Notes under the pieces: model-generated | Told to the model about the DNA's origin: nothing | What the model saw: only the letters and a program-made list of their open reading frames with translations | Databases searched by the model: none | In this document: piece by piece, positions 4,061 to 35,712 of the stretch | Layout of the letters: each line of letters starts with the position of its first letter | How positions within the stretch are numbered: the stretch's first letter is position 1 | Made by a program: the position numbers and the translations under genes | From: an uncultured Clostridia bacterium | Lineage (GTDB): Bacteria > Bacillota > Clostridia > Christensenellales > UBA1242 | Length of the DNA stretch: 49,068 nucleotides | Assembly (NCBI GenBank): GCA_944376905.1 | Contig: CALWEA010000009.1 | Coordinates: forward strand, 1 to 49,068 | Reading direction: 5' to 3'

Positions 4061-5494
4061 ATGAAAGAATCTAAAAAAATCAAAAATAAAGATAAAAATC
4101 TTAACAAAAATTCTAATATTTCAAATTGTAATTCGCAAGTTGTTACTCAATCCCAAAAAAACAACAATACAAAATTAATAATAACAGTTTTAATATTAGG
4201 GATATTGCTTGCATTGATGACAACTTTATTTGTTTTATCTTTGCAAGAAAATAGAAAAACTTCATTAAATTTAGAAGATTTTTATCAAAAAAATTTTTAC
4301 GAATTAGTTGATAATATTAATAACACTGAAACAAAATTAGCAAAGACAATTTCTGCTAATGATATAAATTATCAATCTAAATTATTGGAGGAAATTAGTA
4401 AAAATACAACTTTGGCACAAGTTAATTTGAATAATTTACCATATTCTATTAATGGTTTAGATAATACTGTTTCTTTTATAAATCAAACAAGCGGATATTG
4501 TGAAACCTTATCTAAAAGTTTAAAAAATGGTGAATCTTTAACAAATGAGCAACGCAAAACTTTAAATAATATTTATGATAGTATTTTAAATATCAAAGAA
4601 GTTTTAAATCAAATGAGCAAAGAAATGTGGAATGGTTACAGTATCATTGAAACCTCGGCTAGTTTTGACGGAGATTACAACTCTTTTACTATTAATTTGA
4701 GTCAAATTAAATCTAATGATGTTGAATATCCAACAATGATATATGATGGTCCCTTTTCTGATTCTGAAGTAAATAAAAAAGTAAAAGGATTAAATGGTGA
4801 ATTAGTAGGGCAAGAGCAAGCGAAACAAAATATATTAAAAATATTTTCTAATTATAATGAAAATATGGTTAAATATATAAATGAAACTAATGGTCGCTTT
4901 GCAACTTACAATTTTAATGTTTATGATAAAAATAACAATGAAATTGGTTATGTTCAAATGACTAAAATTGGTGGAAAACTATTAACTTTATCTTCATATA
5001 ATGATAAAAAATCAAAAAATTTAACCTTAAAAAATGCAGAGGCGATTGCTCTACAATTTGCACAACAGGCTCAAATAAATAACACAAAAGTTGTGTGGAG
5101 TGATATTGTTGGCGGTAATGCCTTTGTTAATTTGGCACCTGTTCAAAATAACATTATTTTATATCCTGATTTGATAAAATTAAAAATAGACCTTTCTGAC
5201 GGAACTGTTTTAGGTTTTGAAGCAAGTGCTTATTATACAAATCATGTTAAAAGAACATTATTAAAAGGCAATTACTCAATAGAAAATGCTAAAAATAAAA
5301 TAAATAAAAATTTTGTTATTCAAGAAGAAAGATTGGCTTTAATTCCATTAGATTATGGACAAGAAGTTTTATGCTATGAGTTTGTTTGTAAGCATGGGGG
5401 AGATGATTATTATTTTTATATTAATACAACAACTGGAGTTGAAGAAAACATATTAAAAATAATACAAACTGATAATGGTAGTTTGTTGATGTAA
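4061..5494 (+). CDS. ypeB: Germination protein YpeB
   Basis: A 477-residue membrane-anchored protein: a polar lysine/asparagine-rich cytosolic N-terminus, one transmembrane helix (39-61), then a large extracytoplasmic part with repeated PepSY-like segments towards the C-terminus. YpeB is mutually required with SleB for stability and localisation in the spore, and the two genes are adjacent here. The ATG follows AGGAGATG. The tyrosine/phenylalanine-rich C-terminal PepSY-type end (DYYFYINTTTGVEE) is typical. Assignment rests on architecture plus synteny. Confidence 0.93.
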   Translation: MKESKKIKNKDKNLNKNSNISNCNSQVVTQSQKNNNTKLIITVLILGILLALMTTLFVLSLQENRKTSLNLEDFYQKNFYELVDNINNTETKLAKTISANDINYQSKLLEEISKNTTLAQVNLNNLPYSINGLDNTVSFINQTSGYCETLSKSLKNGESLTNEQRKTLNNIYDSILNIKEVLNQMSKEMWNGYSIIETSASFDGDYNSFTINLSQIKSNDVEYPTMIYDGPFSDSEVNKKVKGLNGELVGQEQAKQNILKIFSNYNENMVKYINETNGRFATYNFNVYDKNNNEIGYVQMTKIGGKLLTLSSYNDKKSKNLTLKNAEAIALQFAQQAQINNTKVVWSDIVGGNAFVNLAPVQNNIILYPDLIKLKIDLSDGTVLGFEASAYYTNHVKRTLLKGNYSIENAKNKINKNFVIQEERLALIPLDYGQEVLCYEFVCKHGGDDYYFYINTTTGVEENILKIIQTDNGSLLM

Positions 5495-23963: not shown

Positions 23964-24167
23964 ATGATAGACAAAGATAAATGTATTGCTTGTGGACAGT
24001 GTGTTAATATTTGTCCAGTTGAGGCAATTAAATTTGAAAAAGATGGTAAACCTCAAATAGATAAAAATATATGTATAAAATGTGGCGCTTGTGAAAATTT
24101 GTGTCCAACACAAGCAATAAAAATTGATACAAAAGGGGAAGATAATGGAAAAAGCAGCCTTAATTGA
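23964..24167 (+). CDS. 4Fe-4S ferredoxin
   Basis: A 67-residue ferredoxin with two classic cluster motifs, CIACGQCVNICP and CIKCGACENLCP, each followed by an AI(K) segment, as in bacterial 2[4Fe-4S] ferredoxins. It carries low-potential electrons in the cytosol. RBS TTAGGAG precedes the ATG. Its last codons overlap the start of the Ppx/GppA-type gene by 23 bp, so the two are one transcription unit. Confidence 0.95.
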   Translation: MIDKDKCIACGQCVNICPVEAIKFEKDGKPQIDKNICIKCGACENLCPTQAIKIDTKGEDNGKSSLN

Positions 24168-25659
24168 AATTGGGCCTTCTTCATTAAAATTGATAACAAT
24201 AAGTTTGATAGGTGGTGGTTATCATAAAAAGGTTAATACTATAAAAGAAATAATAAGATATGATGAAGATATATTTGAACAACAAAGTATAGGCCTTCCT
24301 AAATTTACAGAAACTATTAAATATTTAAAATTATTTAAAGAAATATGCGAGGCGGACAATATTGTTAAAATATATTGTTATGCTTCTTCTGTTTTTTCTA
24401 GTTTAAGAAATTCTAAATCTTTTTTTGAAGATTTAACAAACAATACGGGATTTACTTTTTATGTTTTAAGTGAAGAAGAAGAATTGAAGTTTGCATATAA
24501 TGCTATTTTAAATTCAGTTGAACCTAATAAAGCATTATTATTTTATGTTAATCCACATAATACTTTACTTATTAATTTTGCTAAAAGAAATATATTGTCA
24601 TCTAATTGCTTTCCAGTTGGAGCAAATTTTTTGTCATATCAGTTTAAAGATTCATCAAAATCAGCCCAAGAAATTGTTGATAATATAACTCAAATAGCGA
24701 AAGACCAATTAAAAACAGTAACTCTTGATTATAATCCTGAAGAAATAGGATTTATAGGTGCTGGTGAATTTTTTGTTGTGTTAAGTAAATTGGTTAGAAA
24801 AATAACAAGGTATCCATTAGACCAAGATAATAATATGGTAATAACTAAGCCAATTTTTGATAAGGCATTTAATTTGTTGGTCGAACAAGGATTTGATAGA
24901 ACAAAAAAAATGTCTGCAATATCTGATGAAAGATTAGACAATTTGATTGCAGGATTTGCAATTATAAAAGCATTTTTTGAAGAATTTAATGTTGAAAAAA
25001 TTTATATATCTATTAAAGAAATAAGTGATGCAATTATATCTGCAAAAATAATTAAAGAAACTGCAAGTGAAACAAATTCTGCAGATGTTTTGGAAAATAG
25101 TCTTGAAACAATTAGATACTATTTTAATATTGAAGATTCTAATGCTGACTGGGTATACAATTTAACTATAAACTTATTTAAACAAATGTCAATTATTCAT
25201 AAATTAACAAGAAAACATGTTAAGGCATTAAAAATAGCTTCTTTCTTATATGATTGTGGAAAAAGAATAGAACTAGAAAATCACAGTAAATTTAGCAATG
25301 ATATAATTTTAAATCAAAGAATTTTGGGTGCAAACCATAAAGATATTATTATAGCCGCATTTGCATGTCAATGTCAAAATCAAGAAAATTTTCAATTAAG
25401 TGAGTGGATAAAATATAAGGATATAGTAAATGAAGAAGATTTAATTGCGGTTAGAAAAATTGGAATGTTAATCAAATTGGCAGAAAGTTTGGATTGTAAT
25501 AAACAGCGAAAAGTTTATGAAGTTAATTGCGATTTATTAGGCGATATTGTTATTATAAAAATAAGGACTAATGGCAACGCAATATATGAAATGCAAGAAG
25601 CAAACAAATTAGTAGGGCAATTTAAAAAGATATTTAAAAAGAATTTTCAAATTATTTGA
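24145..25659 (+). CDS. Ppx/GppA family phosphatase with HD-type C-terminal domain
   Basis: A 504-residue protein of the exopolyphosphatase/pppGpp-phosphohydrolase family. The N-terminal actin-like ATPase fold starts with IEIGPSSLKLI, which replaces the usual DIGSNS, and has a LSEEEELKFAYNA segment near 108-120. The C-terminal ~170 residues look like an HD domain (RKHVKALKIASFLYDCGK, then LGANHKDIIIAAFA). The catalytic loops are divergent: the usual DIGGGS-type phosphate loop reads YVNPHNTLL. It may therefore be an atypical or regulatory member. The ATG at 24145 with AGGGGAAG upstream is preferred over the TTG-type start at 24124, which would lengthen the overlap with the ferredoxin. Confidence 0.8.
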   Translation: MEKAALIEIGPSSLKLITISLIGGGYHKKVNTIKEIIRYDEDIFEQQSIGLPKFTETIKYLKLFKEICEADNIVKIYCYASSVFSSLRNSKSFFEDLTNNTGFTFYVLSEEEELKFAYNAILNSVEPNKALLFYVNPHNTLLINFAKRNILSSNCFPVGANFLSYQFKDSSKSAQEIVDNITQIAKDQLKTVTLDYNPEEIGFIGAGEFFVVLSKLVRKITRYPLDQDNNMVITKPIFDKAFNLLVEQGFDRTKKMSAISDERLDNLIAGFAIIKAFFEEFNVEKIYISIKEISDAIISAKIIKETASETNSADVLENSLETIRYYFNIEDSNADWVYNLTINLFKQMSIIHKLTRKHVKALKIASFLYDCGKRIELENHSKFSNDIILNQRILGANHKDIIIAAFACQCQNQENFQLSEWIKYKDIVNEEDLIAVRKIGMLIKLAESLDCNKQRKVYEVNCDLLGDIVIIKIRTNGNAIYEMQEANKLVGQFKKIFKKNFQII

Positions 25660-25662
25660 TAA

Positions 25663-25705
25663 AAAATATAAGGTTTTGTTATTTTTAACCTTATATTTTT
25701 ATTTT
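25663..25705. terminator. Terminator after the Ppx/GppA gene
   Basis: AAATATAAGGTT (25664-25675) pairs with AACCTTATATTT (25687-25698), followed by TTATTTT. The A-run before the stem allows use by the convergent gene as well. Confidence 0.85.
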
Positions 25706-25725: not shown

Positions 25726-26901
25726 TTAAATTAAACTAAGAACAAAAGCGGGACGCACGGCGCGGGACTCATAGACATAGGGGCTACCCACACTTCCAGA
25801 CGAATTGACTAATATCGCAAAGTAATAGGCGTAGACATAACCCGAACGCAACCACCAATCATACGCACTATAACTGTCAGGACTATCTTGCATTCCTCCT
25901 GATGAGTATGCCGTTTCTTTTGCAACTCTATTAGATTGATCTGTATCAGTTGTTGGTTTAAAATATGTTCCTAAACTATATGAATCTGTCGCGTTATTTA
26001 TATGATCACCATTATAATTTCTATTTGAACCCAATAAAAACATGTTATATCCTACATCGTTATATTTTGTTGAGTTGAATCCATTTTGTCCTGCGCTCTG
26101 AGTTCCATTATAATAACTTGTTATTGGCATTGTTTTTGGTATTATTTTTGTTCTTTGATTATCTGTAAACATTGTGTTATATAAACTATTTGCATTATCC
26201 TCATCATTTAAAACTTTGTTTATATCTGATATAGAAAAATGGTTATATGGTGATGTATAATAATCAAATCTATATGTTGAGCGTAGTAAACTATATTCAC
26301 TTAAAACTAAAACTTCACTCGCATTTTGCCATTCTCCACTTGTTGTTGTTCTATATTTGAATGTGTTTGTTGCTTCGTTATACAACCATAAGCCTGAACT
26401 TGATGATTCATTTCCTGCTTGATTACCTGTCGTGAATAAAACATGTTGTCCTCCGCTATAAACTCCGTTTGTTACTCCTATTACTATCCAACGTACTGGC
26501 TCGACATTATAAAAATTTGTTCCTTGTTTGGCAAATTTTTGCCCTGTTGTTTTATCTTCATATAAAGCAGGTTTAATAATTCCACTGGAACCAAAATTGT
26601 AATAATAATCAGCAGTTATTTCATATTCGCTTTCTGCCTTTGGCAATGATGTTCCATAATATGTTTGTGGATATTCTCCCATTTCTATATAATGAACATA
26701 GCGGTTTGATGTGTCATCATTATCATATACTGGACCTGTTTCTCTATCGTATTTATGCACTGTATAAGGTGCTTCTTCAAATTTAATATTAATCTTTAAT
26801 GCTCCTAAAAGAGCAGGGTTATCGGCTGTAACGCCAGTTTGTATAGATAATTGAGTCGCAGTTGTTTTAATGTTTGTGTTTTTTCTGTTGTTTCTCCACA
26901 A
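25726..26901 (-). pseudogene. Secreted DUF6273/lectin-like protein, 3' part of a frameshifted gene
   Basis: The open frame (391 codons) continues the protein begun at 27293 after a one-base shift. It carries a domain typical of DUF6273 (a fold related to C-type-lectin/formylglycine-enzyme domains): GEYPQTYYG near the start, an EPVRWIVIG strand, and a C-terminal block AYDWWLRSGYV ... AVRPAFVLSLI. No independent start is credible; the TTG at 26899-26901 has no ribosome site. The last 120-150 bp are strikingly GC-rich and adenine-poor on the coding strand. The paralogous gene at 33247 has a different C-terminal domain. Joined, the two parts would make an exported protein of about 520 residues. 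Confidence 0.75.
25735..25890 (-). other. Candidate variable region at the C-terminal end of the DUF6273 domain
   Basis: Over 25741-25860 I count 61 G/C in 120 bases, about twice the local level. Only 16 of 120 bases are A on the coding strand. The codons here (GTC, TAC, GCC, AGC, CCC, TCC, CGC, GCC) mostly end in C, unlike the rest of the window, where such codons are rare. The encoded block starts at the WWLRS motif and ends at RPAF. Location, composition and fold fit a diversity-generating-retroelement variable region with A-to-N changes at AAC/AAT codons. No template repeat or reverse transcriptase is in the window, so this is an inference. Confidence 0.45.
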
Positions 26902-27293
26902 TTAACACTTGCAAAAATATTTTTTGTTTCACCATTTAGAATATAAAACTTAAAATAAACTAAACCTGTTGAATCTGGCGTTAAACTATTTGCCTCTAAT
27001 CTTATTGTATCACTAGAAATACTTTGAATATACATTCCATTTGAAACAGGGTTTAAACTGTTATATATTTCAACATATTCATTTTCTTTAATTGTTTGGT
27101 CATCTGTTCCGTCATTCGCTCCGTCTATTCCCATTTCAACTTTAACTAAATATTCCGGTTGGTATGTTATACCAACATTAAACATTGAATTCTTTGTTAT
27201 AGTTAAAGCGTAAACTCCCATAAAACCCATTAAGCAAATTGTTAAAATAAAACTTGTTGTTAAAAATATTATTTTTTTCTTTGATTTTGTCAT
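26805..27293 (-). pseudogene. Secreted protein, 5' part of a frameshifted gene
   Basis: The frame encodes a signal segment (about 6-30), then a beta-rich domain closely related to the N-terminus of the gene at 33247 (shared EYLVKVEMGIDGAN, VEIYNS, NPVSNGMYIQS). The homology ends near codon 136 (VNCGETTEK). After that the frame reads through 25 unrelated residues to a stop, while the -1 frame carries on the paralogous sequence (ALKINIKF). The shift falls at an A6 run (T6 at 26879-26884 on the plus strand); one extra A would restore a single frame. Either a real inactivation, a phase-variable tract or an assembly error. RBS AAAGGAGTTATATT before the ATG matches the paralogue. Confidence 0.8.
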
Positions 27294-32391: not shown

Positions 32392-32557
32392 ATAAAATTA
32401 TATTCATAATAATTAAAAATTGTAATTAAAAGGTTTTTAAATTAATAAATGTATGATATTTACAAAAACTAAAAAAAACTGACAAAATAAATGATAAAAA
32501 AATAATTTAAAATGAATAATATTTGAGATTTTACACAAGTTATAACAGGAGGTAAAT

Positions 32558-32719
32558 ATGAATTCAAATAAATGGCGCCCAGGTGAAGAAGCCCCTTGCA
32601 CAGGCAATTATGTTGCATATGATGCTGAAGGTCACAACGGCGGAACAGTTCACCTAGAAAAGGGTCAAAGATTTCCTGCTACTCAACATAGCGGAAGTTA
32701 TTATGTTGCCGAAGAATAA
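32558..32719 (+). CDS. YjzC-like small protein
   Basis: A 53-residue protein beginning MNSNKWRPGEEAPCTGNYV and containing VHLEKGQRFPATQHSGSYYV. The RPGE.AP..G.Y pattern, then KGQ(R/K)FP near the end, matches the YjzC family, a small protein of unknown function in Bacillus spores. The ribosome site AGGAGG (32547-32552) is perfect, and a terminator follows the stop directly. Its base composition is notably less AT-rich than the surroundings. It belongs to the 5-kb core between the two inverted surface-protein loci. Confidence 0.8.
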   Translation: MNSNKWRPGEEAPCTGNYVAYDAEGHNGGTVHLEKGQRFPATQHSGSYYVAEE

Positions 32720-35635: not shown

Positions 35636-35712
35636 TGGTGCGTCGCAAGGGATTCGAACCCCTGACCTTTGGTTCCGTAGACCAACGCTCTATCCAGCTG
35701 AGCTAGCGACGC
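35636..35712 (-). tRNA. tRNA-Arg (anticodon ACG)
   Basis: On the minus strand the acceptor GCGTCGC pairs with GCGACGC. The D-arm GCTC..GAGC is present, the anticodon stem TTGGT/ACCAA encloses the loop CTACGGA (anticodon ACG), and a T-arm AGGGG-TTCGAAT-CCCTT follows. The discriminator A is followed by an encoded CCA (35636-35638). The wobble A is expected to be deaminated to inosine, reading CGU, CGC and CGA. Confidence 0.97.

Follow-up and report, generated by a model that had tools for sequence, protein, structure and literature searches.

Seven dispersed DUF6273 gene tails in an uncultured Clostridia genome as probable targets of a diversity-generating retroelement

Targets of diversity-generating retroelements (DGRs) can lie far from the machinery that rewrites them. 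In Treponema denticola, as described in the excerpted text of PMC4891356, seven target genes dispersed over one chromosome are served by one template, and some isolates keep targets while the template or the reverse transcriptase is absent. Excerpts of two other reports describe DGR fragments from Nanoarchaeota that lack a reverse transcriptase (PMC4372165) and remote DGR targets with a matching template in the genome of Thiohalocapsa PB-PSB1 (PMC10907252). Surveys restricted to variable regions that adjoin a reverse transcriptase overlook such dispersed targets, as the part of PMC8144416 cited here states of its own approach. Targets that carry the DUF6273 domain are known from Faecalibacterium prophage DGRs, where the excerpted report places the variable region C-terminally in DUF6273 (PMC11792537), and from the tentaclins of gut phages, for which an excerpt names DUF6273 as DGR target (PMC10743442). 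These two papers were the only ones found in a literature search for texts naming both "diversity-generating retroelement" and "DUF6273". For the phage BPP-1, the text available from PMC12875486 locates the IMH directly 3' of the variable codons.

Here, we analyzed a stretch of 49,068 nucleotides (the window; contig CALWEA010000009.1) from the draft genome of an uncultured Clostridia bacterium (1.37 Mb, 28 contigs, 96% complete).

A GC-rich gene tail and its six counterparts

The frame list and a domain scan place a 391-amino-acid reading frame with a DUF6273 match (residues 196-389) at 25726..26901 on the minus strand. The end of this domain, as a sequence-only reading had placed it, is encoded by a segment of unusual composition. 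Our recount over 25741-25860 returned exactly the 61 G+C and 16 coding-strand A in 120 bases given in that reading, and the runs of C-ending codons that it cited are present. The mean G+C content of the window is 25%, and its richest 120 bp (63 G+C) begin at 25747. Only two further regions of the window reach at least 45% G+C per 120 bp. One of them, 32544-32712 (up to 60/120), holds a short reading frame beginning MNSNKWRPGEEAPCTGNY, which in our view resembles small YjzC-type proteins; the other is accounted for by a tRNA gene (Rfam) at 35639-35712 on the minus strand.

Six further DUF6273 genes with the same 3' end were found on five other contigs of the draft, two on C1 (C1a and C1b) and one each on C2, C3, C4, and C12, indicating that the GC-rich stretch is more than chance composition. 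The seven tails contain 47-54% G+C and 10-21% A; immediately upstream, the values are 27-31% and 42-45%, respectively. In three remoter homologs encoded on C10, C4, and C3 of this genome, the tails consist of ordinary A/T-ending codons. The ends of contigs C14 and C12 overlap by 77 bp inside one DUF6273 gene copy, showing an assembly break within this family of genes.

The seven tails align codon by codon. Fixed GCG, GTC, TCG, GGN, GTG, TCC, and GCC codons are interleaved with codons that hold C or T as third base and whose first two bases take three or four different bases across the seven tails. In the seven-paralog alignment, the variable region of the window copy occupies 25759..25863 on the minus strand. 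It consists of 27 codons (25759-25839) flanked by fixed LRSG and RPAF codons, and of an extension in which the fixed TTGCGTTCGGGT (25840-25851) is followed by variable NNT codons just before WW, up to 25863. The high G+C content comes mostly from fixed framework codons (GCG, GTC, TCG, TCC, GCC, and CGT CCC GCT), so that loss of adenine, which had been offered as the source of the odd composition, explains it only in part.

Mean pairwise differences among the seven copies in the 27 codons were 0.504, 0.409, and 0.132 at codon positions 1, 2, and 3, respectively, and 0.158, 0.166, and 0.129 in 169 upstream codons. We defined a contrast by subtracting the position 3 difference from the average for positions 1 and 2, and calculated it for the variable region and for 143 equally sized windows upstream. 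The variable region yielded 0.325, higher than every upstream window (maximum 0.148). Its third positions differ no less than those upstream (0.132 versus 0.129); with no extra conservation there, the signal is carried by the raised differences at the first two positions. Variation is focused on the first two positions of NNC/NNT codons within a fixed framework, as in DGR targets. The amino acids K, E, Q, M, and W occupy 18 of 345 AAY-type sites, compared with 1011 of 6577 upstream. The other tail sites are equally poor in them (18/377); thus, this exclusion test is unspecific and was not used as evidence.

A conserved sequence follows the variable codons. The motif (G/T)TGCGTCCCGCTTTTGT stands directly 3' of them in all seven copies. 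In the window copy, pattern searches and position identify GTGCGTCCCGCTTTTGT at 25742..25758 (minus strand) as a homing-signal-like (IMH-like) sequence, which matches the other six copies at 16 of 17 bases. A search of the genome with a 22-base form of the signal, allowing up to 3 mismatches, returned exactly seven sites, all of them in the seven copies. The sequence-only reading had suggested a homing signal near the stop codon, and such a conserved, signal-like sequence is indeed there in every copy. The sequence after the variable part is TTGCGTCCCGCTTTTGT, in place of which the window copy reads GTGCG... From there, five of the six other copies stay identical through TCCTTAATCTAGCGTAG and beyond the stop codon; C3 and the window copy have diverged, the latter over the gene end 3' of the signal (25726..25741, minus strand) as judged from the alignments. 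We also looked for a BPP-1-like stem-loop after the signal and rejected it, as no inverted repeat is conserved downstream of the seven copies. The repeats that follow the window and C3 copies are terminator-like. In the window, this is a perfect 14-nt inverted repeat with an 11-nt loop at 25662..25700, between the tail gene and the convergent gene 24124-25659, and it fits termination in both directions for the two convergent genes.

The gene of the window copy is divided between two frames, 25726-26901 and 26805-27293, both on the minus strand. The upstream frame (26805..27293), in another reading frame, encodes 162 amino acids with a hydrophobic, signal-like N-terminus, and its counterparts are intact at other loci. 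At the split (26805-26901, minus strand), the C1a paralog is identical over 95 bp, and the metagenome homolog P0007 starts in a shifted frame like the window gene; the C1b, C2, C3, and C4 copies have uninterrupted frames of 615-709 codons. Because the split is common to several copies, it is perhaps not a sequencing error. Decay, recombination, and phase variation are open as candidate causes.

An excerpt of PMC10743442 describes a C-type-lectin resemblance for a DUF6273-like domain. Two AlphaFold models were poor (pLDDT 39.6 and 59.3) and left the lectin fold unconfirmed, Foldseek gave no match at E ≤ 0.001, and a profile search of solved structures gave three weak matches (E 0.18-0.54) that were not used. 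We infer that the domain is secreted and C-type-lectin-like and that the tail makes up the face in contact with its ligand.

Retroelements and homologs related to the family

Of the 98 genomes of the family, 25 contain a reverse transcriptase. We fetched 28 of the 31 places (all but G073:C2, G046:C4, and G022:C37) and searched them for repeats whose mismatches fall on the adenines of one copy, requiring at least 85%. Ten of the 28 loci contain a template/variable pair; the 18 pairless loci include short stretches, outside which a pair could lie. In the ten extended pairs, 171 of 177 mismatches fall at template adenines, a share that arises partly by construction from the required 85%. DUF6273 is the target domain in four of the nine targets scanned (L039, L041, L042, and L044), and in all four the variable region is C-terminal; the L046 target, only 61 amino acids open at a contig edge, was left out of the scan. 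Fifteen of the family reverse transcriptases have invariant G, S, and Q residues in a GLPxGNQTSQ stretch, which we take to be the DGR form of the motif.

The template at L041, from a genome of another genus in the same family (G091), gives a gap-free alignment with the window family that starts at the GCG codon. Three or more bases occur among the seven tails at 17 of 27 columns that are adenine in this template and at 6 of 45 other columns (Fisher p = 2e-5, with this related template standing in for the family's own). As a counterpoint, these six non-adenine columns are hypervariable in the seven tails as well.

A complete DGR is present in the window's own genus. In G026, a DUF6273 target, an Avd-like protein, a template, and a reverse transcriptase follow one another in this order on one strand (L042 247-11675). 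The best match of this reverse transcriptase among solved structures is 8ub7 (E 3.4e-21, labelled Reverse transcriptase), presumably the BPP-1 DGR enzyme, and the Avd-like protein matches phrog_3206 (E 5e-4). The reverse-transcriptase contig is identical, over the matched part, to Christensenella sp. UBA5489. The DGR adjoins a collagen-repeat tail-fibre-like protein, and from this neighbour we regard it as probably a prophage DGR. It resembles the window family in its DUF6273 target with a C-terminal variable region, but it has a single target beside tail-fibre-like genes and a different template; the template inferred from the seven tails has no match in G026. Among 58 other genomes of the family, the sole match to the inferred template is a template-like remnant inside the DGR locus of G052 (L054 5372-5412). 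This non-coding remnant lies some 0.8 kb away from the reverse transcriptase, is separate from the locus's template at 4728, and perhaps represents a decayed template.

We then compared homologs from metagenomes. The set comprised 56 sequences including our own, and entropy was counted on the 33 with the same LRSG-type-to-RPAFVL spacing, the 23 others being set aside; these 33 hold 29 distinct tails, with tails of this genome among them. Entropy was 3.09 bits at 15 AAY-type sites and 1.34 bits at the other 13 tail sites. Over 528 pairs, mean identity was 0.73 in 200 upstream residues; within the tail it was 0.12 for the AAY-type sites and 0.55 for the remaining ones. Excess codon variation, which the sequence-only reading had named as a check between strains, was detected between paralogs as well as between metagenome homologs. 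Two observations count against constant activity: P0007, P0014, and P0020 have one common tail at 89-98% upstream identity, and in P0028, P0029, and P0031 the tail changes no faster than the upstream part.

Origin of the tail variation

We consider it very likely that the segment is a DGR-type variable region, one of seven, each probably written through mutagenic retrohoming from a single adenine-rich template by a trans-acting reverse transcriptase missing from the draft. One such template would have served all seven tails, its RNA would have been copied with errors at adenines, and the mutated cDNA would have replaced the gene tails under the guidance of the GTGCGTCCCGCTTTTGT-type sequence, the putative homing signal. 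The reverse transcriptase would act in trans, and its seat may be in the missing 4% or so of the genome or on a mobile element, or it may have been lost. The sequence-only reading had proposed that the 3' end of a predicted surface-protein gene is a DGR variable region whose machinery acts from elsewhere. The codon signature, the signal-like sequence, and the DGRs with DUF6273 targets in the genus and family bear this out in large part.

The machinery was searched for in several ways. No reverse transcriptase was detected in the 96%-complete draft, window included, with the PF00078 profile, which was positive in control genomes, nor with a 15-sequence family alignment at E ≤ 1, a search run without a positive control. 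A single query, the Avd-like protein of G026, likewise returned no Avd from the draft at E ≤ 1, also without a positive control. For the template, the signal pattern yielded only the seven variable regions of the draft; a degenerate tail pattern found six copies (C2, with an extra codon, was missed) and no template; and BLAST with the inferred template recovered the seven copies (77-83%), with no further hit under E 0.3. The genome search proposed with the original reading therefore found neither a reverse transcriptase nor an adenine-biased template in this draft, which is not closed. With about 4% of the genome missing and an assembly break in the gene family, the absence is suggestive and not proof; action in trans and present activity are both putative.

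Outside this genome, the signal pattern gave three single matches in 309 family genomes and three in 8 genus genomes. None of the six continues into a variable-region-like tail, and they were taken as chance. No machinery for the window family's template was seen in the family and genus genomes searched. In viral contigs, two exact patterns had zero matches and an alignment-based search found no relative; a shorter pattern had three matches, all rejected for their unrelated contexts. The 181-bp segment had no match in phage records, and the 391-amino-acid protein had no relative among named-genome contigs.

Could the tails vary without a retroelement? Diversifying selection is frequent on surface proteins, and a multigene family with recombination-like 3' flanks would reshuffle its tails by gene conversion among paralogs. 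Selection by itself, however, would not confine change to positions 1 and 2 of NNC/NNT codons beside fixed codons. The contrast in the tail exceeds all 143 upstream windows, and the variable sites tend to coincide with adenines of a real template from another genus. Furthermore, gene conversion would be expected to make a small number of tails common to several copies, whereas the seven variable regions are 57-72% identical. We therefore judge selection with conversion very improbable. Still harder to credit is composition alone, that is, the recent acquisition of a GC-rich piece or unusual codon usage at the end of the domain. GC-rich framework codons in so AT-rich a window would suit it, but it leaves the site-specific variation over seven copies unexplained, and the more distant DUF6273-type paralogs of the genome lack a GC-rich tail.

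A more serious competitor, which we hold to be quite possible though not the favoured reading, is that the regions are orphans or fossils of a DGR since lost by the lineage, with tails now under ordinary mutation and recombination. A 96%-complete draft without machinery fits this account, as do the metagenome homologs with identical or slow-changing tails and, in the excerpted text of PMC4891356, the T. denticola isolates that retain 2-6 target genes while lacking template or reverse transcriptase. So do the window and C3 copies, which have diverged after the signal core and carry 6 and 5 private departures, respectively (counted at columns in which all copies but one are identical), the remaining five copies having 0-2. 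On the other side, 4% of the genome is unseen and five copies retain the signal core. Up to three of these share a 3' flank at 94-97% identity with tails at 62-65%: the flanks of C1b and C2 are 97% identical and those of C1b and C1a 94%, with variable regions only 62% and 65% identical. Near-identical flanks next to differing tails suggest that, set against those duplications, the writing has no great age. For the window copy itself, the largest number of departures, the diverged signal, and the frameshift point to possible retirement, and it may no longer be rewritten. Its ending alone is no mark of a dead copy, since the homologs P0005, P0009, and P0015, which share its SLI ending, bear differing tails.

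Because the genus has a DUF6273 DGR beside tail-fibre genes and the draft has targets without machinery, we also considered that the seven chromosomal lectin-like surface proteins are rewritten in trans by the DGR of a transient prophage or mobile element, their diversity being on loan from phages. We regard this as an unlikely special case.

Comparison with known systems

DGR targets can be recognised from paralogs alone where the machinery is absent, and a small uncultured clostridial genome here maintains seven hypervariable DUF6273 tails. Two questions become testable: for how long tails persist after their retroelement is gone, and whether host surface genes can be written by phage-borne DGRs.

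With the T. denticola and DUF6273 phage precedents, the kind of system is already known; particular to this case are its host, its seven chromosomal DUF6273 targets as a set, and the absence of machinery from the draft. As far as the excerpts describe the other systems, the window family resembles that of T. denticola in its seven dispersed targets and its targets without machinery. It differs in being made up of DUF6273 proteins of an uncultured Christensenella-named clade, for which template and reverse transcriptase were not found. Nanoarchaeota and PB-PSB1 share with it variable regions far from a reverse transcriptase, read in the excerpted accounts as fossils or trans targets, but have other hosts and other target folds. 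The Faecalibacterium phages have in common with it a variable region placed C-terminally in DUF6273. In the partial texts cited, however, their targets and the tentaclins are phage proteins beside the cassette, whereas the window family consists of seven chromosomal genes with a signal-like N-terminus.
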